Source: a virus
Direction: 5' to 3' (one strand)
Length of the DNA stretch: 51,102 bases
Virus record (IMG/VR): IMGVR_UViG_3300042382_000381
Location: 1-51,102 of that record
Position 1 is the stretch's first letter; every line of letters begins with the position of its first letter. Made by a program: the position numbers and the translations under genes. The notes beneath the pieces are model-generated. The model saw only the letters and a program-made list of their open reading frames with translations. It was not told the DNA's origin and made no database searches. This document shows positions 4,969-36,931 of this stretch, piece after piece.

Positions 4969-7900
4969 TCAGCTTATAATAAAGCGCTGGTATGCACGAA
5001 TCAACCAGTCAATTGGTAGTGCATTCAACTCTGGGTCCACTACAAACAACCACTTGTCATGATTACCCATAGGCTTGGCAGTCTTGGCAATGAAGCCTTG
5101 ACGGAACAGACGGAGCATCTTGCGGTCTGTGTATGCCTCACCCTTCTCTTTATCACTCTTCTCAAGAGTTTCTACCAGCTTCTTGGCCCAGTCCTTGGTT
5201 GTTCCGTCTGCAGTTACAGCATAGAACCACTGAGTGATTTGAGCAAATTCAGTTGCTGCAAGCTTACGTTCCTCGTTGTCCATGGCCATGTTGGCAATGC
5301 ATGCTGGCATATATGGAGTGTTTGCCCATTCAAGCAATTCCTTGTAAGCTGCACGTACAATTGCCTCACGTACTTGCATCATCTCAAGAATTGGAGAGTT
5401 CTCCTTATCAGCCACAAATGAGAAGTTCTTGCCCCAATACTTGAATTCAATACCAACGCGCATAGGTACACGCTTTGACTTAATCCAGTACTGGTCAATA
5501 CGTCCACCAGTAGATACCATCCACCTCTTGATTTCACGATAGAACTCATCACCAGACTCAGAGATAAGCTTCATGTCACCTGGTGTACCAAGGCCTTGCT
5601 GCACAGCGTCAATGATCTGCTCGTTGGATACAAGCTGGTCAGTGATTACTTTACCGGTAATTGCATAGGTCAGCATCTTAGGGAGTACTGTTGCACCGGT
5701 ACCACCAGGCATTGCAGATGCAGACTTACGCATGCGTACCTCGTCTTCAATACTGTACACATCACCAATCTCAAGTGTCGATGCTCCTGGCAACTCTTCA
5801 AATGAGTAGTTGATCCTGTTATTCTTCAACATGTTGCTGAGCTGCTCAACCTTAGCCCTGAGCTCTGCCTCAATCACAGTTGGCACATTGCCGTATGTGT
5901 GATAGCAGTGTTCAACTTCACTAGGAGCTACTGGAATAGCACTCCATTCACCAAAGTCGTTAGGGTTACGCATAAGCAATGCCTTATAAGAACGCTTACC
6001 TTCTGCATTCACAAAGTCACGGATCATTACGTTGATCGAGTCATCCAAGTCAGGACCACCGTGGTTAGGATAGTTCTCTACAAAGAATTCACCTGGTACC
6101 ACAAAGCAGTGTGTCTTATCATGGTAGAAGCCCTGCATACCTTTATTATTAAACTTGTATCCAAAGATTTCAAGTACTTCACGAGTCATGATGTGTGCAC
6201 GATATGCAAATGGCACTGGCATACGAGTACCAACACCACGCTGAGTTGCAGCATCACCTTCAGGAACCATCTTACCTTCTGGGGTAAGAATACCGAACAT
6301 CATTGCCACACCACGAGCCTTGAGATACATAAGTAGCTGACTGGATTCAATACCAAGGCCAATCTCATTCAACTTATCAGCAAGTTGGTCAATCCGCTTG
6401 ATCATGGAGTTCTTGTTAGGGTTCATGTCATCTTCGTTATCGATGTTCATGGCAACTTCCTTCCTCCAATCAGAGTCTGAACCATTCTTGTAGTTGTCCA
6501 CAAGTTCATTCATTGCATGCTGAAGAGTTGACAACATGAGCCATGGATCAATCACACCCATAACATCACGGTAGATTGCCAATGTCAAGTCATCAGAGGA
6601 CAACGGGAGCTTGCCATAGCTACCTTCTGCAGTTGCCCAATACCATCCGTCAGTCTTGATCTCAGCTTTCACGTTTGGTGTAAAGGTACGAATGTCATAC
6701 CCGTTCATCATCTTGTCTGGAAGCACAATGGCATTACCCTTGATCAAGCCCTGTGGCGTGAGTACACGGAGTTGCACAATGCTCATTTTACCAGACTCAA
6801 CACGCTTGATCATGGATTCTTTCCATTCGTCAGATGCGTTTTGGTTGTTCTCAATCATATTGACCATGATAGTCCTGCTGACTGCACTGATGCCGTCAAC
6901 ATACTTCTCATCAACTCCAAGAACTGCTGGATCCATGATTTCAACATCAAGGTTATTGTAGAGTCCATACATGCAACTCTGACGTGCAAATTCCTGTGAA
7001 CGCTTGGCAAACTTCTTACTGTTACCAATAGTCAATCCAATCTTGTTGAATGCATCCAACCAACCATTATTATTATTCACAATGATAGTGAACTGATGGT
7101 CTGCGGTTGACCAGCGGATTACTGTATCTGGTGTGATTTCATCCTCTGGCAATGGTGCAGCTGTGATAAGGCTATGCTTGATGTTGCGAACCTCTACACG
7201 GTATCCTTGTGGGAAGAATGTGTCAAGGAATGCAAAGCTGTATGCACCCTGCTTAAATTCTTCTTTCACTGATGCATCCATTCCTGTCAATGGCATTGTT
7301 GTAATTAACCTCATGTTACCTCCGATAACTTTCATACCGCCATCAATCATTGGGTCGCTATAACCCGATTCATAAGCAGCGGTCCTCCGTTGGATATATT
7401 CACGTGTGATCCCATACTTTGCACAAAGCTTGTCAAGCATAAGGGTGCACACATTCTTTTCTTCAGCAGGTGTGTTCTTGTGGTCTTCACGGCTCTTGAT
7501 GCCCTTGATCTTTGACCACACCTTGTCTGATATTCCATCAACAGTTGTGACCTCCATCACCTCCTGCCAGATGTCCATATAATCGACAATTCCATGGAAG
7601 AATGTCTGTGTATTTCCTGGCACGTACATTGCTACCTCCTTCTTTGTTTGTTCGATGATTGTATTCATTGGTTTCTCTTCTTTCATTTGTTGTGGGTTGT
7701 TTGGTGTTTTAGGCATGTCTTTACCGCTTTCTCCTCCGTTGTCCTTCAAACTATCTCTAATTTCCATAAGCATTGCTCCTAGCATGTTTTTCCCGGTAAC
7801 ATCATTGCATACAGTTCCGCATATACATTGACCCCAGAAATTGTCGTGCCAAGTGTTGGTTTCAATTAGCTCAACATCTCCAGTTGCCAGTAGTTTGGCT

Positions 7901-9156
7901 GCAAGTTCAGTGCCAGGTTCAAACTTAATGACTAATGCATGCCGCATAACATCCATTTTAATTTCGTTCCAATCTTTGCGTATTGCAAATGTCCTTGCAA
8001 ACTTCTTCGCCTCAAAGCCATTCATTGATTTGATTTGTTCTCTGATACTTTTATTTTCAGTTTTCATAGCCATATAGAACGATTCAACACACTTGTATCC
8101 AACAATATCAACTGGATACATGTTCGACAGAAACTTGTATTCATCTTGCTTAAACATAGGTACAGCTTTCATATCTTTGTCCTTTTCTGTTGGGTTCATT
8201 GGTTCTACTGGGCCTTCGGTGTTCTTCATATTTCCTCCTTCAGGGTTGATAATAAATGTTTTAATTCCATTTGTTCTGCAATAGTTATAGCACTGTGCAG
8301 TACCTCTGCTTGTAGGGTTATATACCCACACCACATCAGCACGGTCAGCCATCCATTCATTGCGTACAAAGTTTGAGTGCTTGCCATCAACATAGATGTT
8401 CTTACCACATACATAGTGGACAGCACCTGTGTTGTTTGCATAACGAGCCAGCTCCTGGAATGTATCCATGCGGTCAATCTTAAGCACTGAGTTATTGCGC
8501 CAGTAGTAGGCAGAGTAGCCTTTGTTAGGAATTGCTGCAATGAGTGTTACTCCAACGCACATAGCTGCACGTGCAAGAACTTCATCAAAGCCTTCTGCCA
8601 TTCCAGAGATAACAACCAGATTGTCACCGTGCTTAGCCTTGGCCTGTGTGAGCAGGTCGATAAGGTACTCTTCTACCTTGTTCATCTTGTCTTCATCATT
8701 GACGAGAGACCGTGATCCAGTCCCTGCAATTACGAACTTGCCATCAAGTTGTGGCATATCTGATACTTTCATTACCTTCTCCTTTGGTTGTGGTTGTGGT
8801 TTCATTACTTGCTCCTTTGGTTGTGGGTTTGGTTGTGATTTCATGTTCTCTTCCTCGCTTTCGTTGTGGTAGTTTTTAATAAGTTGAGCCAACAATTCAC
8901 CTGAGTAAACATACGCATGCAAATTTCCATTGCTTTCAAGCTTGTATATATCACCCATTTTCTCACACACTGCAAATCGAATACCTTCAGTGTAGATCTG
9001 CCTGTACTCTTCAACACTGCACTGCCAGAATACATCTTCGTCATGCCATTTAATAATGGTGTTGGTTGTTGTTGGTGTTGACATTGCTGCTACCTCCTTG
9101 GTAGTTGTTGGGTTGTTGTTTAATTGAATATTCATTGGTTCATCTCCCTCTTGCAT
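4969..9156 (-). CDS. 1,395-aa multidomain protein: SLOG, NADAR and large unknown C-terminal region
   Basis: Residues about 25-105 are a small unknown domain. Residues 137-305 are a SLOG/DprA-like Rossmann domain (GTGSR, SGMAEGFDEVLARAA, RNEWMADRADVVWVY). Residues 330-475 are a NADAR domain (FLSNMYP, VESFYMAMK, LLATGDVELIE, WHDNFWG). Residues 510-1395 are unrecognised. NADAR proteins remove ADP-ribose from guanine and related adducts; SLOG domains bind nucleotides in conflict systems. The C-terminal part contains GPDLDDS (about 1034-1040), faintly like the metal-binding DxDGD of two-barrel RNA polymerases, which is only a hypothesis. The start at 9156 has AAAGGGG upstream. Each domain is also preceded by its own ribosome-binding site and in-frame ATG (9084, 8805, 8772, 8229, 7629, 6450), so shorter products are likely. 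Confidence 0.75.
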   Translation of the reverse strand: MQEGDEPMNIQLNNNPTTTKEVAAMSTPTTTNTIIKWHDEDVFWQCSVEEYRQIYTEGIRFAVCEKMGDIYKLESNGNLHAYVYSGELLAQLIKNYHNESEEENMKSQPNPQPKEQVMKPQPQPKEKVMKVSDMPQLDGKFVIAGTGSRSLVNDEDKMNKVEEYLIDLLTQAKAKHGDNLVVISGMAEGFDEVLARAAMCVGVTLIAAIPNKGYSAYYWRNNSVLKIDRMDTFQELARYANNTGAVHYVCGKNIYVDGKHSNFVRNEWMADRADVVWVYNPTSRGTAQCYNYCRTNGIKTFIINPEGGNMKNTEGPVEPMNPTEKDKDMKAVPMFKQDEYKFLSNMYPVDIVGYKCVESFYMAMKTENKSIREQIKSMNGFEAKKFARTFAIRKDWNEIKMDVMRHALVIKFEPGTELAAKLLATGDVELIETNTWHDNFWGQCICGTVCNDVTGKNMLGAMLMEIRDSLKDNGGESGKDMPKTPNNPQQMKEEKPMNTIIEQTKKEVAMYVPGNTQTFFHGIVDYMDIWQEVMEVTTVDGISDKVWSKIKGIKSREDHKNTPAEEKNVCTLMLDKLCAKYGITREYIQRRTAAYESGYSDPMIDGGMKVIGGNMRLITTMPLTGMDASVKEEFKQGAYSFAFLDTFFPQGYRVEVRNIKHSLITAAPLPEDEITPDTVIRWSTADHQFTIIVNNNNGWLDAFNKIGLTIGNSKKFAKRSQEFARQSCMYGLYNNLDVEIMDPAVLGVDEKYVDGISAVSRTIMVNMIENNQNASDEWKESMIKRVESGKMSIVQLRVLTPQGLIKGNAIVLPDKMMNGYDIRTFTPNVKAEIKTDGWYWATAEGSYGKLPLSSDDLTLAIYRDVMGVIDPWLMLSTLQHAMNELVDNYKNGSDSDWRKEVAMNIDNEDDMNPNKNSMIKRIDQLADKLNEIGLGIESSQLLMYLKARGVAMMFGILTPEGKMVPEGDAATQRGVGTRMPVPFAYRAHIMTREVLEIFGYKFNNKGMQGFYHDKTHCFVVPGEFFVENYPNHGGPDLDDSINVMIRDFVNAEGKRSYKALLMRNPNDFGEWSAIPVAPSEVEHCYHTYGNVPTVIEAELRAKVEQLSNMLKNNRINYSFEELPGASTLEIGDVYSIEDEVRMRKSASAMPGGTGATVLPKMLTYAITGKVITDQLVSNEQIIDAVQQGLGTPGDMKLISESGDEFYREIKRWMVSTGGRIDQYWIKSKRVPMRVGIEFKYWGKNFSFVADKENSPILEMMQVREAIVRAAYKELLEWANTPYMPACIANMAMDNEERKLAATEFAQITQWFYAVTADGTTKDWAKKLVETLEKSDKEKGEAYTDRKMLRLFRQGFIAKTAKPMGNHDKWLFVVDPELNALPIDWLIRAYQRFIIS
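6448..6467 (-). promoter_or_regulatory. Internal RBS and start in the 1,395-aa gene
   Basis: GGAGGAAGGAAGTTGCC-ATG, encoding WRKEVAM. It would start a 493-aa product (residue 903 onward) that carries the DLDDS motif. Confidence 0.5.
7627..7641 (-). promoter_or_regulatory. Internal RBS and start in the 1,395-aa gene
   Basis: AAGGAGGTAGCA-ATG, a consensus site encoded within KKEVAM. It would start the region after NADAR at residue 510. Another ATG lies at 7668. Confidence 0.6.
8227..8241 (-). promoter_or_regulatory. Internal RBS and start before the NADAR domain
   Basis: GAAGGAGGAAAT-ATG, encoded as PEGGNM at residues 305-310, exactly between the SLOG and NADAR domains. It would give a free NADAR protein or NADAR plus the C-terminal region. 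Confidence 0.65.
8770..8818 (-). promoter_or_regulatory. Two tandem internal RBS-start modules before the SLOG domain
   Basis: CCAAAGGAGCAAGTA-ATG (ATG 8803-8805) and CCAAAGGAGAAGGTA-ATG (ATG 8770-8772) are near-duplicates. They encode the repeated linker QPKEQVMK / QPKEKVMK. The second starts precisely at the SLOG domain. Confidence 0.65.
9082..9099 (-). promoter_or_regulatory. Internal RBS and start near the N-terminus
   Basis: AAGGAGGTAGCAGCA-ATG, encoded as KEVAAM, gives a start at residue 25. This may be the main start, with the upstream 24 codons a leader. Confidence 0.6.
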
Positions 9157-9182
9157 TACTCGACCCCTTTCTTGGCGCTACA

Positions 9183-11318
9183 CTACTTGGTCTCCTTTTT
9201 GGTTGTAAGGGTGTTGTGCATCCACTTGCGGATGTTCTTATCCATAGCTGGTTCAAGCTCAGCATTGTACTTACCACGTAATTCTTCTACATGGTAATCC
9301 TTGGTGAGACGTGCATGACCAATCCATTCATTGGTATCTTTGTCTTTAAAGCCAATAATGTAGCATTCTTTATTAGCTACTCTTTCGTTGTACGCAGTGC
9401 CAATGCAGTTACCTTGTGCTGCACCCCATTCAACTAAGTCATGAGTTGTCTTTGGTGCTACAAATATAACTCCTGGCAATACCTCTTTGCCATTGAACGA
9501 GTTAATCAGCTTAGTGTTAGGAGTCTTTCGTTCAACTTGTGCATACTTGCGTGCCTCAGCAATAACAAAGTTATGTATCTCTTCTGGGTTCATCTTCTGC
9601 TGTTTAACATGAGCCACAATAGTCTTGCGCGCATTACCAAGAGGAATCTTCTTCCAGCTGTTCATTGTGTCAACAACTATGTCCACATGGTATCGTGTAT
9701 CACCAAGTGTTTGAGCAAGATATCCTTGGTACCACTTAATCGTTGAGTTCCTAAATCCAAATGTCTTAAAGAACTTATTGAAGTGATTTATTTCTTCAGT
9801 TGTAACATTAACAATTGCATCAACATGATATCGTTTTGTCTTATGATTAAAGTATCCGTCCCAACTTGCTTGCCTGTCTTTGTCAGCATCTGTTGCAACC
9901 CAGTTCTTACCTAGTTCAGTATCTGTTACAACCCAAGAAATATCCACATTGTCAAAGAACTCTCTTGGGAACAACTTAAACATTCTTACAAGAACAATTG
10001 CAGCTTGTAGTTCCTGGAAGTGCTTGAGCTTCTTCATGCCTCCAAATGCGTTCTTTGTTAATCCCTCTTGTCCAGTCTTACCATAAGCCCGGTTAAGTAT
10101 ATCTACCAAGCTAGTCCTTCCATTAATCCAATACATGTCTCGTGCGTTAAAGTCATGCAACTGATTAAAGGCAGGTGTGCTAATGGCATAATTGGCTTCA
10201 GCATCTACCTTCGGCAAGTATTCAGCTATTGGCATTACATCTTTCTGTGAGTACATGCCTTCAAGCATCTCCACTATGTGCTGAGTAATGTAACCTATTT
10301 CATGTGCATGAAGCTTGCCAAACTCTTTTTGCTGCTGAAGTGATTGCCCCCACTTAATAGCCTTAGTCTTGGTATCTTTCACGAGCATTCGTACACCAGA
10401 AGGAGTCTTTGTTACAATCAGGATATGATTAAAGTTTCTCCTATGCGGTGGGATACTGCTATTCTTTGCAGATCCAGTCTTTGACCTATAGCTAGACTTA
10501 TTGGCGTATTCTTCATTGGCCAAATAGCATGAAGTAGTTGAGGTGTTCATAATCCACCCAGTATCAGTTTCAATTAACCTAACTTCATATACTGTAGACC
10601 ATTGACCCAGCTCTGCAGAATGTTCAGTCGCACGGAATTGATTAAATGTCCGTGTGTAATAACCATAACGATCCCAACGCTCTACCGTAGGCACAGTTTC
10701 ATTATTATATCCAAAAGGATCATAAATGTCATTTGCGTGGTAGATTGCATTAACAATTTCAAATGCAGACATTTCATCTGCTGGTTTCATCTTACCTCTT
10801 TCTTCTGGTGGTGTAAACATTTCATTCATCTCCTCTAGTGTTGTTTCTGGACTTTTCATTGCTTTCATGGCTATTACCCTTTCGTTATTGTTGTTTGATA
10901 TTGCTTGCATGTACATTGCATTGATTGCTGGATCTTCTAGCTGCATTTCTTTTCCTCCTTGTTTGATTATGGCTATTACCACAAATGCATCTTGTGTTCT
11001 ATATGCTCCACTGCTCCATCCATCTACTGAATCGTCGTGCCAATCTGGATATGGCGCATCATCGTCATGGAACATTGTGGCTGGATCAAATGGTCGGACC
11101 AAATAAACATTGGCAGTTCCACCATTCTTTAGTGCTGCATTAGCTGCATATCGTTCAGCTTCTGTGATGTGGATAGTTGCATGAGCAAAGTCTTTCAACT
11201 GCTTGAGATATTTAGTTGAGTAGTTAATTGTTCCACCATGTTCAATAGCAGGGAGGATAAGGTCTCCCTCATTAAACTTGCGGTTTGTTCCGTGGAACAG
11301 GATTGTTGGCTTATTCAT
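9183..11318 (-). CDS. 711-aa protein: Arr-like ADP-ribosyltransferase domain plus PcfJ-like C-terminus
   Basis: Residues 1-120 match rifampin ADP-ribosyltransferase (Arr)-type enzymes: FHGT at 8-11, GD at 18-19, NYSTKYL, VYLVRP, and SGAYRTQDAFVVIAII near 107-122. Arr enzymes transfer ADP-ribose from NAD; H9 and a Tyr near 33-36 are the expected NAD-binding residues. The middle region is unrecognised. Residues about 622-700 look like PcfJ: GNCIGTAYNERVANKECYII, then VEELRGKYNAE. The start overlaps the stop of the upstream gene (TAATG) with AAAGGAG. An internal AAGGAGGAAAAGAA-ATG at 10946 falls exactly after the Arr domain, so a separate second product is likely. It is transcribed just ahead of the NADAR gene. 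Confidence 0.7.
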   Translation of the reverse strand: MNKPTILFHGTNRKFNEGDLILPAIEHGGTINYSTKYLKQLKDFAHATIHITEAERYAANAALKNGGTANVYLVRPFDPATMFHDDDAPYPDWHDDSVDGWSSGAYRTQDAFVVIAIIKQGGKEMQLEDPAINAMYMQAISNNNNERVIAMKAMKSPETTLEEMNEMFTPPEERGKMKPADEMSAFEIVNAIYHANDIYDPFGYNNETVPTVERWDRYGYYTRTFNQFRATEHSAELGQWSTVYEVRLIETDTGWIMNTSTTSCYLANEEYANKSSYRSKTGSAKNSSIPPHRRNFNHILIVTKTPSGVRMLVKDTKTKAIKWGQSLQQQKEFGKLHAHEIGYITQHIVEMLEGMYSQKDVMPIAEYLPKVDAEANYAISTPAFNQLHDFNARDMYWINGRTSLVDILNRAYGKTGQEGLTKNAFGGMKKLKHFQELQAAIVLVRMFKLFPREFFDNVDISWVVTDTELGKNWVATDADKDRQASWDGYFNHKTKRYHVDAIVNVTTEEINHFNKFFKTFGFRNSTIKWYQGYLAQTLGDTRYHVDIVVDTMNSWKKIPLGNARKTIVAHVKQQKMNPEEIHNFVIAEARKYAQVERKTPNTKLINSFNGKEVLPGVIFVAPKTTHDLVEWGAAQGNCIGTAYNERVANKECYIIGFKDKDTNEWIGHARLTKDYHVEELRGKYNAELEPAMDKNIRKWMHNTLTTKKETK
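10944..10961 (-). promoter_or_regulatory. Internal RBS and start after the Arr-like domain
   Basis: AAGGAGGAAAAGAA-ATG, encoded as QGGKEM, at residue 125, right at the end of the ADP-ribosyltransferase domain. It would start a 587-aa product ending in the PcfJ-like region. Confidence 0.65.
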
Positions 11319-11632
11319 TATTTGTCTCCTTTGTTGTTAATGGTTCGATATGGACGGCCATACTTTTCAATGAAGATGGCGTTCACTATTGCCATACCTT
11401 CTTCAAATGTGCATGGTTGATCATCAAGACCAAGAGGTAGTTGTGCACCACCGTTAGTCCTCATGTTCTTCTTTGCTGCTGCTTGATTCATTGTCTTCCT
11501 CCAGTTAATCTGCTTTATTAGCCTTGCAGCTTTCAATGGAGCATTTACTTCCTTATGCTTAGGACAGTTCTCACTGCGTAAGCATTGCTTACCTTCTTTT
11601 GTTACTGAAGCACATCGTGGTGATGTACGCAT
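11318..11632 (-). CDS. Small zinc-finger-like protein, possibly two fused genes
   Basis: A 104-aa protein with AAGGAGGATAATC before ATG. Residues 7-27 carry C-x8-C-x5-C-x2-H spacing (CASVTKEGKQCLRSENCPKH), like small metal-binding domains in phage proteins. Residues 48-104 (MNQAAAKKN... FEEGMAIVNAIFIEKYGRP) have their own ribosome-binding site GGAGGAAGACA-ATG at 11489-11502, so a 57-aa second product is likely. The stop overlaps the start of the 711-aa gene. Confidence 0.6.
   Translation of the reverse strand: MRTSPRCASVTKEGKQCLRSENCPKHKEVNAPLKAARLIKQINWRKTMNQAAAKKNMRTNGGAQLPLGLDDQPCTFEEGMAIVNAIFIEKYGRPYRTINNKGDK
11489..11502 (-). promoter_or_regulatory. Internal RBS and start in the 104-aa gene
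   Basis: GGAGGAAGACA-ATG encoded as WRKTM. Same style as the internal starts of the two long genes downstream. Confidence 0.55.
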
Positions 11633-15058: not shown

Positions 15059-15212
15059 CTACTAACTCCGTCCACTTTTCTCCGCATTCACGGCATTCGA
15101 TTCCATATTTAGTATTATCATCTTTTTTACCCAAGTGGGTAACTATAAAATTAGTTGGAATTGGGCAATCTGCACAAGGATCAATTTCTAGGTCAATCCT
15201 ATTACTTGGCAT
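15051..15212 (-). CDS. Small zinc-ribbon protein
   Basis: A 53-aa protein (MPSNRIDLEIDPCADCP...). CADC at residues 13-16 and CREC near 39-42 form two CxxC knuckles, a classical zinc-ribbon spacing. It overlaps the end of recA by 11 nt and the next gene by 8 nt. Probably a small DNA- or protein-binding accessory protein. Confidence 0.6.
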   Translation of the reverse strand: MPSNRIDLEIDPCADCPIPTNFIVTHLGKKDDNTKYGIECRECGEKWTELVDE

Positions 15213-16185
15213 CTCGAATCTTCTCTTTCATCTCCATAAAGGTATCTTCATTCTCTCTAAGGTGATTAATAGCATTTTCTCTACCCTGAGCAAACAATTC
15301 GCCGTTGTAATAGATCCATGCGCCCTTTTGAGTTAAAATGCCGGCATCTAGTGCAACATCTAAAACGCAACCATGCTCATCAATGCCTTTGCCATAAAGA
15401 ATGGAGAACTCGGTTACTTTCATAGGTGGTGCCATCTTATTTTTAATAATCTTAACTTTAGATACAATACCTACTGAGTTGCCGGCCTTATCCTTGATAT
15501 CTTCTCTTTTTCTAATATCAATACGAACAGATGCAGCGTACTTTAGTGCCATGCCACCTGGAGTGGTTTCTGGGTTACCAAACATTACACCAATCTTGTT
15601 TCTAAGCTGATTTATAAACACTAGGAGCGTCTTATGGGTATTTGCCTGTCCAACTAGCTTTCTCATGGCTTTGGCCATCATACGAGCTTGTAGACCCATC
15701 TGAGCCGATTCCATGTCACCCTCTAGCTCTGCTTTTGGAATTAAGCTTGCAACTGAGTCAATAATGATGACTCCAAGCTCTCCTGTAGCAACTAGCTTGT
15801 CTACGATCTCTAGTGCTTGCTCGCCGTAGTCTGGCTGGGTAAAGACTAATTCATCTACATCAACTCCAACAGCTTTCATATAAACTGGGTCCAATGCATG
15901 TTCTGCGTCTACATACGCGCACGTGATACCAAGCTTTTGTGCTTGAGCAACAATTGATAAAGCAAGTGTTGATTTACCAGAAGACTCTGGTCCATAGATC
16001 TCAACTATTCTACCTCTTGGTAGTCCGCCAATTCCGAGTATTCTATCAAGTGATAAAGCACCAGTTGGGATTGATGGCCACGGTTCAAAGTCTGATGAAC
16101 CCAATTTCATTACCGAGCCGGCACCATATTGTCTATCTATTTGAGCTATGGCCAACTCAAGTTGTTTTGATATTGCTTCAGTCAT
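15202..16185 (-). CDS. recA: RecA recombinase
   Basis: A 327-aa bacterial-type RecA. Walker A GPESSGKST (65-73), the YVDAEHALDP motif, Walker B VIIIDS (139-144), loop L2 NQLRNKIGVMFGNPETTPGG and the C-terminal domain are all present. The usual acidic C-terminal tail of about 20 residues is missing; the protein ends KEKIRDAK, which may relax autoinhibition. RecA drives homologous strand exchange with ATP. A phage copy probably supports replication-linked recombination and repair. It is the second gene of a leftward operon with a 58-aa coiled-coil protein. Confidence 0.96.
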   Translation of the reverse strand: MTEAISKQLELAIAQIDRQYGAGSVMKLGSSDFEPWPSIPTGALSLDRILGIGGLPRGRIVEIYGPESSGKSTLALSIVAQAQKLGITCAYVDAEHALDPVYMKAVGVDVDELVFTQPDYGEQALEIVDKLVATGELGVIIIDSVASLIPKAELEGDMESAQMGLQARMMAKAMRKLVGQANTHKTLLVFINQLRNKIGVMFGNPETTPGGMALKYAASVRIDIRKREDIKDKAGNSVGIVSKVKIIKNKMAPPMKVTEFSILYGKGIDEHGCVLDVALDAGILTQKGAWIYYNGELFAQGRENAINHLRENEDTFMEMKEKIRDAK

Positions 16186-16763: not shown

Positions 16764-18230
16764 ATGAAGATATATCAGATATATGTTCCTGAACTTGCCA
16801 CGTATGCAAAGTTCAAAGTCCTAGAACCAGAAAGTTTAGAAGACTTTATTTCTGAATACAAAAAAGAAAGTAAGAAGATAGATATTCTTTCTTTCAGGAA
16901 AAAAGTAATTGAAACTTTTGTTTTTAACCTAAAGTCAGATATTACAGATGCCTTGCGTTTAATGACTAAGCAAGCAGCTCAAGCATGTCTAGATTCCTTA
17001 TTTACCGGATGCATTATGCTGAACCCCGGCTTAGACATTGACATGTGGCTAAACATAGCCTATACAGGAGTGCCTGAAGATATTGGTCCTATGGACCTAG
17101 ATGACGACATTTCATCGGCATTTTTAAACTCACTAAAGAACATGCGTTCTAAGTTTCCAAAACTAGATGCTGAAGATTACCCATTTGACACTAAGGGTAA
17201 AACAAAGCCTAAGATTAAGCAAATTTCAAAGCAGAAGTATCTTGGTTTAAAGAATCACCTAAATTCTAATATTATTGGACAAGATGCTGCAATAGAATCT
17301 GTTGTTTCATCTCTTAGGAGGTCACAAGCTGGTTTAAGCGATAATGATAGGCCACTTGGTGTATTTCTATTTGCTGGTTCTTCAGGAGTCGGAAAAACTC
17401 ATTTGGCAAACGTTTTGCATAAATATCTATTTGGAAGTGACTATCCTATGGTTAGAATTGACTGTGGAGAATATCAACACAAACATGAGAACCAGAAGTT
17501 AATTGGCTCCCCTCCAGGATATGTTGGACACGACGAAGGTGGACAATTAGTTAATACAATTAAACAATTTCCTTCAAGTGTAGTATTGCTTGACGAAGTT
17601 GAAAAAGCTCACCCAGATCTTTGGAACACATTCTTGAGAGTATTTGATGACGGTGTTTTAACAGATTCAAAAGGTGAAGTGGTTGATTTTAAAAATACAA
17701 TTATTATTATGACCACAAACTTAGGAAATGATAAAACTAGCGAACATCTTCTTGCCGGCGGTACTGGCTTTAATAGAGATGTTAATTATAAGACTGGTAC
17801 TAAAAAAATTCCAGAAAGATCTATTCTTGAAAGAAATACGAATGACGGCATTAAAAAGCACTTTAAACCAGAGTTTTTAAATAGAATTGATAAAGTTGTT
17901 ATATTTAATTATTTATCTGAATCAGATTGTCAAACGATTGCGCAGTTAGAAATGTCAATCATTGCAGACAAGATGAGAAAGAAGGGTTATTCTTTTGAGT
18001 ATAATCAAAATGTAATTGAAGGTTTAATAGACAAGGGCATAGATAGCATTAAAGGCGCACGTGGTTTGGCTCAAATAAGAAGAGAATTGATGGAGTCTCC
18101 ACTTGCTGACAGCATGATTAATACCGTAATTCCAAGAGGAAGTATATTCCAGATGTACTATGAAGATGAGGCTTTTAAATTTAGTATTCAAAAACCTATC
18201 AAAAAAACAGGTCTATTAAAAGAAGTTTAA
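16764..18230 (+). CDS. ClpA/ClpB-type AAA+ ATPase
   Basis: A 488-aa single-ring AAA+ protein. Residues 1-150 are a phage-specific N-terminal domain. The AAA+ core has Walker A GSSGVGKT (205-212), pore loop GYVG inside GSPPGYVGHDEGGQL, Walker B VVLLDEVEKAH, sensor 1 MTTNLG, arginine finger FLNRID and sensor 2 GARGL near the C-terminus, as in the D2 ring of ClpA/B. These unfold or remodel proteins using ATP. There is no Clp N-domain and no ClpP in the window, so it may act as a stand-alone remodeller (head maturation or host takeover) or feed host ClpP. First gene of the late region. Confidence 0.9.
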   Translation: MKIYQIYVPELATYAKFKVLEPESLEDFISEYKKESKKIDILSFRKKVIETFVFNLKSDITDALRLMTKQAAQACLDSLFTGCIMLNPGLDIDMWLNIAYTGVPEDIGPMDLDDDISSAFLNSLKNMRSKFPKLDAEDYPFDTKGKTKPKIKQISKQKYLGLKNHLNSNIIGQDAAIESVVSSLRRSQAGLSDNDRPLGVFLFAGSSGVGKTHLANVLHKYLFGSDYPMVRIDCGEYQHKHENQKLIGSPPGYVGHDEGGQLVNTIKQFPSSVVLLDEVEKAHPDLWNTFLRVFDDGVLTDSKGEVVDFKNTIIIMTTNLGNDKTSEHLLAGGTGFNRDVNYKTGTKKIPERSILERNTNDGIKKHFKPEFLNRIDKVVIFNYLSESDCQTIAQLEMSIIADKMRKKGYSFEYNQNVIEGLIDKGIDSIKGARGLAQIRRELMESPLADSMINTVIPRGSIFQMYYEDEAFKFSIQKPIKKTGLLKEV

Positions 18231-35214: not shown

Positions 35215-36931
35215 ATGGCTTTTAACTTTGTGGAAACCTTTACGGTTCAGCTGCCAGATTTTGCTGATATGGATTTAGACTTCTCAGAATCACAAAATGC
35301 AAACAAAGGTTTAATCATTGAAGTTGCAGCTATCCATGAACGGATTGACTGGCAACTATAATAACTATTCTGCAATAGAATTAGAAAAAGCTCTCCAGTC
35401 ATGGGTTGAGCCTTATCCTAAGCCAATCATTTTGAACCATGATCTTAATTCAGAGCCAATTGGCCGTGTTATGGCAGCAAAGATGGATAAAGAAGAAGAT
35501 GGTTCACATTTCGTTCGTTTACAAGTTGCAATCACTGACCCAGTAGCAATCCAAAAAGTTCTTGACAAAAGATACTTGACGGGTTCAGTTGGCGGAAGAG
35601 CTGGGAAAGCAGTCTGCTCAATATCTGGAGACGACCTAGCATCTGAAAGTGCTGACGGCAGACCAAAGGTTCAAAAGTTTAAAAGAGGCCAAGTTTACAA
35701 AGGCAAGTTGGCATTTATCGACATGCAAGACATTTCCTTTAAGGAATATTCATTCGTCAACCAGCCAGCAGACTCTAAGTCTGGAGTAAGAAAGTCTTCT
35801 TCTGGAGATGTTAAAGTAGAAAACTCTTCAGATGACTGGGTAGCAAGAAGTTCTGCATTCGTACTTAATATGGATGAAGAAGATATATATTCAGTAGAAG
35901 AGCATAAATCGATTCTATCAGGTTTAAAATCTAAAGAATCTAAACCACTTTATCTACATCTAAAGGGCTCTTTCCTTACGGCTATTGCTGTTCATGAAAG
36001 TGAAAATTACAAATACAATAGCAACTCATTACTATCTAATGAGAATGATAATAATGAAGATCATGAGGAGAATTCAAAAATGGAAGAAAGCGTTCAGAAT
36101 GAGGATGTTTTGGCTGCTGTAGAAAGCCTTAGCCAAGATCTCTCAACAATTACCGCAGTTTCAGCTCAGGAATCGCAGGAACCTGTTGCAGAGCCAGCAG
36201 AAGAAGTAGTGGAAGTCAAGCCTGAAGAAGTTGAGACTGCAGAAGAAAAAGGCGCTGATTCAGAGCCGGTAGCAGAAAGCCAGGATATGGTTTCTGTATT
36301 AAAGCAAGCACTTGTTTTGGCTACTGAAGTTAAAGATCAAGATTTGGTTGACATCTTGACAGCAAAAATAGCTGCACAAGAAGAAGTAAAAGAAGAAAAG
36401 ATTTCTAATGAAACTTCAGAGTCGGTAGAAGAACAGGCTGAATTAGCTGTTGAATCTGTAGACGCTGAGGTTACTGAAGAAAACAAAGCAGTTGAAGAGC
36501 CAAAGGCAGAGCTCACTAGTCCAGAACAAGCTTCTGAGCAAGATGCCGATGACGCAAGTAAGAAGCTTCAATTGCTTGAAGAAGAAAATCAAAAACTCAA
36601 GAGCGCATTGCACAGAACTCTCGCAGAGAGAGTTGTGGACACAAAGATTGCAGCTGGAATTGAGGGACCTGAATCAAGAGAAGAGTCAATTGCAGAGCAC
36701 GTAAAGCGCACTGCATCATCGTTGGCTGATTCTCTAAGAGATCTAGCAGGAATGCCAGTAGCCAAAAAGGCTAAGGGCACAATGCCAGAAATCAGCTCGG
36801 AAATTGAAGCTGTTGAAAGTGAAGACAATGTCATCACAATTGACGGAGAACAAGAAGAGTCGAAAAAACAGGTTACCAATACTTCAGAGCAGCTTTTTGT
36901 AGATGCTCTCATGGGTCGTCGTAAACTTTAA
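35215..36931 (+). CDS. Prohead protease and scaffold, interrupted by +1 frameshift at CGG
   Basis: The ATG at 35215 (TGGAGAATTAA upstream) opens 42 codons ending IIEVAAIHE; then CGG at 35341-35343 leads to a stop at 35359-35361. Skipping the C gives GLTGNYNNYS and a frame open to 36931, for a 571-aa product. The junction IHE-GLTGNYNNY is the usual protease N-terminal pattern, followed by PKPIILNHDLNSEPIGRV (His of the active site), YLTGSVGG (Ser) and a disordered acidic scaffold region. A start within the second frame (ATG 35336) is possible but has no ribosome-binding site. The protease matures the capsid, and the acidic part acts as scaffold. Confidence 0.8.
35341..35343 (+). other. Apparent +1 frameshift site at CGG (site 1)
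   Basis: CAT GAA CGG ATT; skipping C gives GAA GGA TTG. Frame 35215 continues into frame 35342. First of four such sites. Confidence 0.75.
36080..36931 (+). CDS. Nested scaffold protein (internal start in the protease gene)
   Basis: GAGGAGAATTCAAAA-ATG, with the ATG at 36080 in the protease frame, would give a 283-aa product (MEESVQNEDVLAAVESL...) made of the acidic, Glu/Ala-rich helical C-terminal part. Nested scaffolds from an internal start are known for lambda C/Nu3 and relatives. The excess scaffold would direct capsid assembly and be cleaved by the protease. Confidence 0.6.
   Translation: MEESVQNEDVLAAVESLSQDLSTITAVSAQESQEPVAEPAEEVVEVKPEEVETAEEKGADSEPVAESQDMVSVLKQALVLATEVKDQDLVDILTAKIAAQEEVKEEKISNETSESVEEQAELAVESVDAEVTEENKAVEEPKAELTSPEQASEQDADDASKKLQLLEEENQKLKSALHRTLAERVVDTKIAAGIEGPESREESIAEHVKRTASSLADSLRDLAGMPVAKKAKGTMPEISSEIEAVESEDNVITIDGEQEESKKQVTNTSEQLFVDALMGRRKL

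Follow-up and report, generated by a model that had tools for sequence, protein, structure and literature searches.

Three consecutive genes on the minus strand of a virus record (g1, g2 and g3) raise the question of why long open reading frames carry strong Shine-Dalgarno (SD) sites, each followed by an in-frame ATG, inside their coding sequence. The window, meaning the whole stretch of DNA analyzed, was the 51,102-base virus record IMGVR_UViG_3300042382_000381, positions 1-51,102. A first-pass annotation had listed eight such sites (11491, 10946, 9084, 8805, 8772, 8229, 7629 and 6450), and all 8 were real: at each, an SD lies a few nucleotides before an ATG that is in frame, and there is no stop. 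Site strength was expressed as anti-SD duplex energy in kcal/mol, and gene calls for the window and its relatives were heuristic.

Table 1. Genes, domains and SD-ATG sites of the three-gene locus, and gene arrangements in relatives (slashes join domains of one gene; semicolons separate genes)
Feature	Position	Strand	SD (kcal/mol)	Description
g1	4969..9156	-		1395 aa; N-terminal domain/SLOG/NADAR/RNA-polymerase-like core
N-terminal domain of g1	8845..9084	-		80 aa; DUF4326 in its place in L008
SLOG (YspA-like) domain of g1	8242..8772	-		Separate gene in G018, G036 and L009
NADAR domain of g1	7744..8148	-		Missing from L002; joined directly to core-like part in G036
Core of g1	4972..7629	-		Predicted QDE-1-like two-barrel RNA polymerase
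Insertion at N-terminus of g1 core	7321..7578	-		About 85 aa; missing from L002 and stand-alone genes
g2	9183..11318	-		711 aa; Arr-like ART/PcfJ-like protein
g3	11318..11632	-		104 aa; no function assigned
SD and ATG 11491	11489..11509	-	-9.3	In g3; unsupported as joint
Joint SD and ATG 10946	10944..10967	-	-11.4	In g2, ART/PcfJ boundary
Leader and ATG 9084	9082..9121	-	-12.6	In g1; aaacaacaacccaacaactaccaaggaggtagcagcaATG; kept in L002
Joint leader and ATG 8805	8803..8837	-	-7.9	In g1; cacaaccaaacccacaaccaaaggagcaagtaATG
Joint leader and ATG 8772	8770..8802	-	-8.7	In g1, before SLOG; tandem copy of 8805 leader
Joint SD and ATG 8229	8227..8247	-	-11.1	In g1; aaccctgaaggaggaaatATG
SD and ATG 7716	7714..7737	-	about -9	NADAR-core linker of g1
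Joint leader and ATG 7629	7627..7652	-	-12.3	In g1; aacaaacaaagaaggaggtagcaATG; equals stand-alone core start (MFHGIV)
SD and ATG 7314 (GGNM)	7312..7332	-	-8.9	End of the core insertion; absent from first-pass list
SD and ATG 6450	6448..6471	-	-9.3	Within g1 core
Window and L001				ART/PcfJ; N/SLOG/NADAR/RNAP (ART-PcfJ split over two ORFs in L001)
L002				Window arrangement minus NADAR
L008 (G003)				PcfJ; PIF1/DUF4326/SLOG/...
G030				PcfJ; PIF1/SLOG/small/oxygenase-like/core-like
G034				G030 arrangement minus PIF1; 57% identity elsewhere
G036				PcfJ; SLOG; NADAR/core-like
G018				SLOG; RNAP
G014				48 aa/RNAP
G022, G025, G028				RNAP alone

The annotation had placed all of its sites at domain borders, and this was correct for six (10946, 9084, 8805, 8772, 8229 and 7629) but not for 6450, which lies within the C-terminal domain, or for 11491. 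The unlisted site at 7314 was likewise found at a domain joint, and further in-frame sites were present at 8844 (-7.5) and 10820 (-9.1 kcal/mol). The Met at 6450 is lacking in other core homologues and its SD strength was matched in 36% of synonymous shuffles; it is probably fortuitous. For 11491, no equivalent Met was seen in L008 (alignment read by eye), the SD strength was matched in 40% of synonymous shuffles, and the site is probably a chance SD. Site 9084 probably serves as the principal g1 start, not as an internal one.

The domains joined in g1 and g2 were recognized with differing certainty. NADAR was matched in g1 at 2e-23, the SLOG match in g1 was weak in Pfam and clearer in relatives, and g2 matched PcfJ and, under Pfam's cut-off, an Arr-like ART. 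The g1 core of about 890 aa had no match in Pfam, PHROG or PDB sequence searches. An AF2 model of the 781-aa core reached a pLDDT of 40 with 7 sequences and 81 with a 17-homologue alignment, and in a Foldseek search with the model the top match was QDE-1, the RNA polymerase of RNAi (E 4e-5, prob 1.00), at a low whole-chain TM of 0.3-0.4. Entries 8f72 and 8f5m, which represent an RNA polymerase of a phage and what is likely its counterpart, came next (E 0.03-0.04), and in a viral library a P23-45 protein followed after two close relatives. The model thus predicts a two-barrel single-chain fold. The window motif HGGPDLDDS reads DLDD, not DxDxD; its first two D residues are invariant in the 17 homologues, and G036 has DQDGD. 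On this modeling, the core is a probable RNA polymerase. Several relatives (L112, L114, L115, L116, L118 and L121) also encode a paralogue of about 850 aa that has 19-25% identity to the g1 core and may represent a second RNA polymerase in these jumbo phages.

Strong sites were concentrated in the locus. Of 13 in-frame ATGs in the window with an SD of -8.5 or stronger, 10 were in g1-g3, which hold 2,213 of the 14,141 window codons (16%). When the g1 protein was held fixed and synonymous codons were permuted, 2.8 strong sites were expected in g1 and 7 were observed (p 0.003-0.007). Part of this excess sits in the protein itself, as KEV, PKE or GGN before Met, which is expected of a translated leader. 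Placement was assessed in 8 genes (window g1 and g2, plus 6 genes of 5 relatives) whose domain starts were set independently by homology. Of the 14 domain starts, 13 had a strong SD-ATG no more than 30 codons upstream (p<0.0005), and the best upstream SD-ATG averaged -10.2 at domain starts vs -2.8 +/- 0.95 at random positions, with 0 of 2,000 as strong. Flexible K/E/P/N-rich linkers whose codons happen to look like SDs could give such sites by chance, and single sites were indeed matched by 10-40% of synonymous shuffles; chance is accepted for 6450 and probably for 11491. For the set as a whole, the total exceeds the shuffles and the sites are placed at domain starts, and we regard a chance origin as very improbable. 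Assembly error is also unlikely because other assemblies, made independently and with differing linkers, show the feature too. Among the 14 strong sites of window g1 and L008, 4 had an out-of-frame stop in the form TAATG, compared with 1 of 77 other Mets; these stops, too few for a firm reading, are suggestive of relics of old gene ends.

A scan with the terminase yielded 80 related contigs of up to 203-210 kb, and the window therefore belongs to a jumbo-phage family; scans with the core alone returned just two close relatives. These records represent few independent lineages, with near duplicates being L001, G017/G018, G021/G022, G036/G037 and G031/G034. The records differ at the joints (Table 1). 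In L002, NADAR is gone between two joints and the linker residues are retained; the DUF4326 that replaces the g1 N-terminal domain in L008 lies between homologous linkers; and PIF1, found in G030, is missing in G034. The core-like parts of G030, G034 and G036 have only about 20-23% identity to the window core, and the oxygenase-like assignment is weak (E 0.03). A search for stand-alone versions, which the annotation had proposed as a check, found SLOG and the C-terminal core as single genes and PcfJ without ART. The stand-alone polymerase gene starts MFHGIV or MPFHGIV, and in L002, which is without the 85-aa insertion, the corresponding position lies 8-10 codons downstream of the KEVAM ATG, the counterpart of window site 7629. 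The suggestion that once-separate genes were fused with their ribosome-binding sites kept is thus supported by the stand-alone genes and by whole-domain gain, loss and replacement between joints. These comparisons argue strongly for in-frame fusion of separate genes.

Several joints contain the same leader that precedes genes of this phage, namely an A/C-rich stretch followed by AAGGAG and ATG. In L008, for example, genuine gene leaders read aacaacaacaacaacaaaggagaaatatcATG and aaacaacaacaacaaaaaaggagaaaaataATG, and an internal joint reads aaaaacaaacaacaacaaggaggtagtagaaATG. We searched six genomes for a composite pattern (at least 9 A/C, AAGGAG, 3-11 nt, RTG), with expectation taken from dinucleotide shuffles. 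Four of the six (the window, G002, G003 and G036) held 21 copies vs about 0 expected, a result that also stands against chance; none was found in G034 or G030, whose leaders are without the A/C run. All copies but one, at the end of g2 (9183), were at a gene start or in frame within a fused gene, and one G003 copy coincided with the GTG at which the g3 homologue of 104 aa starts (L008 2696). ACA motifs upstream of the SD are known to increase translation in enteric bacteria (PMC3879156).

Such joints could instead be conserved as DNA, with short linker homology kept for recombination and the SD incidental. The exchanged domains are flanked by homologous linkers, the phage encodes RecA, the 8805 and 8772 linkers are tandem copies, and a role for conserved boundary sequences in phage mosaicism has been proposed (PMC3029335). 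However, the linkers differ between clades (KEVAM, PKEDxM, PKEGxM) and retain the SD, the spacing and the ATG, and the A/C and structure biases at the joints are those of start regions. We consider this explanation quite improbable.

Whether the starts still work was addressed through codon choice and conservation. Nine window joint sites were compared with 300 synonymous shuffles, with 30 other Met codons of g1 as the control. The joints had higher A+C (0.691 vs 0.631) and weaker mRNA structure (60-nt MFE of -3.5 vs -7.3), with no shuffle as high in either. Their SDs were also stronger (-10.0 vs -6.8, p 0.003), a comparison that is favored because the joint sites were partly picked by SD strength. 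The control Met codons had no A+C, structure or SD signal. At the joints of relatives, the A+C and SD signals held and the mRNA-structure signal was not significant (p 0.195). Synonymous divergence between the window and L002 was about three-fold less at joints (8.8%) than elsewhere (24.6%, p 3e-5), for which recombination at linkers could be an alternative source. A gene on the plus strand served as positive control: 35318-36931 has one internal SD-ATG, 36080 (M255), whose position and strength are conserved in G002, G030, G034 and G036 at 55-98% identity. That gene is a putative head maturation protease (phrog_18299, E 0.006) and looks like a nested protease/scaffold gene.

The same comparative data would also fit leaders that survive as linkers after fusion, with no useful initiation there now. 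The annotation had named, as a refuting outcome, relatives that conserve the protein but not the internal SDs. When this was checked, the SD was kept at nearly all joints shared by the window and L002, and distant relatives kept it at several of theirs; at others it was weak, including some in G030. The internal start position was likewise conserved between the window and L002 at nearly all joints, and in G011 at 10946; the ATG at 8229 is GTG in L002, where the next domain (NADAR) is missing. Against such fossil leaders stand the codon-level signals, the reduced synonymous divergence at joints and the strong SDs at differently sequenced joints of distant relatives. Moreover, the 10946 SD was kept in L001, L002 and G011 despite amino-acid changes, the codons reading KQGGKEM, KQGEIEM or KEGEKKM with the SD intact throughout. 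Loss of function at the retained leaders is, in our judgment, unlikely, and codon choice and conservation suggest with moderate confidence that the internal starts still work.

We therefore favor, as the probable reading, fusions with retained and still-active leaders that would give the full fusion plus a nested C-terminal set. The internal starts of g1 would yield proteins of 1267, 1086, 886 and 781 aa, nested because all end at the stop at 4969. The first-pass proposal of separate domain products is ruled out by logic, since with a common stop no domain but the last could be made on its own, and SLOG and NADAR would be made only attached to downstream parts. A protease-processed viral polyprotein was also rejected, domain searches having found no protease domain in g1-g3; a host protease may cleave the products.

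The family's gene leader probably acts as a portable unit, consisting of an unstructured A/C-rich stretch, AAGGAG, a short spacer and ATG. Accessory genes (SLOG, NADAR, DUF4326, PIF1 helicase, oxygenase-like, ART) would have been placed in frame ahead of a core gene, the QDE-1-like RNA polymerase in g1 and the PcfJ protein in g2, with the intervening stop lost and the downstream leader kept. The kept leader would now be translated as an N/P/T/Q/K/E-rich linker, and linker-linker recombination would add, remove or swap whole domains in frame. Retained leaders would still initiate, giving the full fusion and nested C-terminal products, of which the main short one would be the polymerase alone from 7629, its start as a separate gene in relatives; keeping this leader would preserve the original supply of free core after domain addition. 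From sequence, we infer that the internal starts are used, that recombination is the mechanism and that dual output is of benefit. That one portable leader is both recombination joint and translation start, so that a single gene gives nested polymerase fusions in a graded series, is a more tentative proposal that falls short of probable.

The annotation knew of no described phage system with so many nested starts. This overstates the case: a single in-frame internal start is common among endolysin genes (PMC9430671), although these are not several domains deep. Two-polypeptide endolysins (PMC9430671, PMC4777826, PMC12203907) likewise have an internal SD and ATG between domains of a fused phage gene and a common stop, giving full-length and C-terminal products. 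Their single start, between catalytic and binding domain, is experimentally proven, whereas the system described here, predicted from sequence, has several joints per gene, non-lysis enzymes and domain exchange at the joints. Its proposed mode of action is that of such endolysin genes, but the arrangement is multi-domain and recurs across the phage family. Cas11 also arises as a separate C-terminal subunit from an in-frame internal start, in cas8/cas10 (PMC11899642), but the site is single, the gene belongs to cellular defense, and neither domain exchange nor a leader-like linker is involved. Domain shuffling in phage proteins (PMC10684548) similarly exchanges whole domains in frame at short homologous boundaries (PMC3029335); in g1 and g2, a gene leader that is itself translated and includes SD and start codon forms the boundary. 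Single-chain two-barrel RNA polymerases include QDE-1 and phage P23-45 gp64 and tape-measure-fused gp96 (PMC10770324). The predicted g1 core fold is like theirs, relatives carry a paralogue, and the P23-45 polymerase is also fused to another protein; the g1 core differs in its N-terminal fusion to SLOG/NADAR-type enzyme domains and in having DxDD. Reviewed jumbo-phage RNA polymerases are multisubunit (PMC7598289), and a search of open-access papers turned up nothing relevant on jumbo-phage genes that are fused or polyprotein-like and contain internal starts.

These data suggest a route from separate genes to a multidomain protein without losing the old product, the leader staying inside the fusion, with stages readable within one phage family: separate genes, a short N-terminal extension, and two to five domains. 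They also suggest a predicted phage RNA polymerase with NAD/nucleotide-type enzyme domains in fused and free forms, and warn that gene callers hide internal products of fused phage genes.

Other observations concern the gene content. The Arr-like ADP-ribosyltransferase of g2 and the NADAR of g1 are encoded by adjacent genes of one operon together with SLOG, and relatives add DUF4326. NADAR proteins remove ADP-ribose from DNA, and the ART/NADAR/SLOG/DUF4326 group is a possible NAD/ADP-ribose counter-defense set. The phage-encoded RecA lies at 15202-16185 on the minus strand (Pfam RecA, E 2e-116), and a ClpX/ClpB-like AAA ATPase at 16764-18230 on the plus strand adjoins structural genes. Between g3 and g2, relatives carry variable small genes including a HAD-like phosphatase (L001 2789-4309, L008 2696-4172), mostly with short SD junctions, at what appears to be a cassette-like insertion spot.
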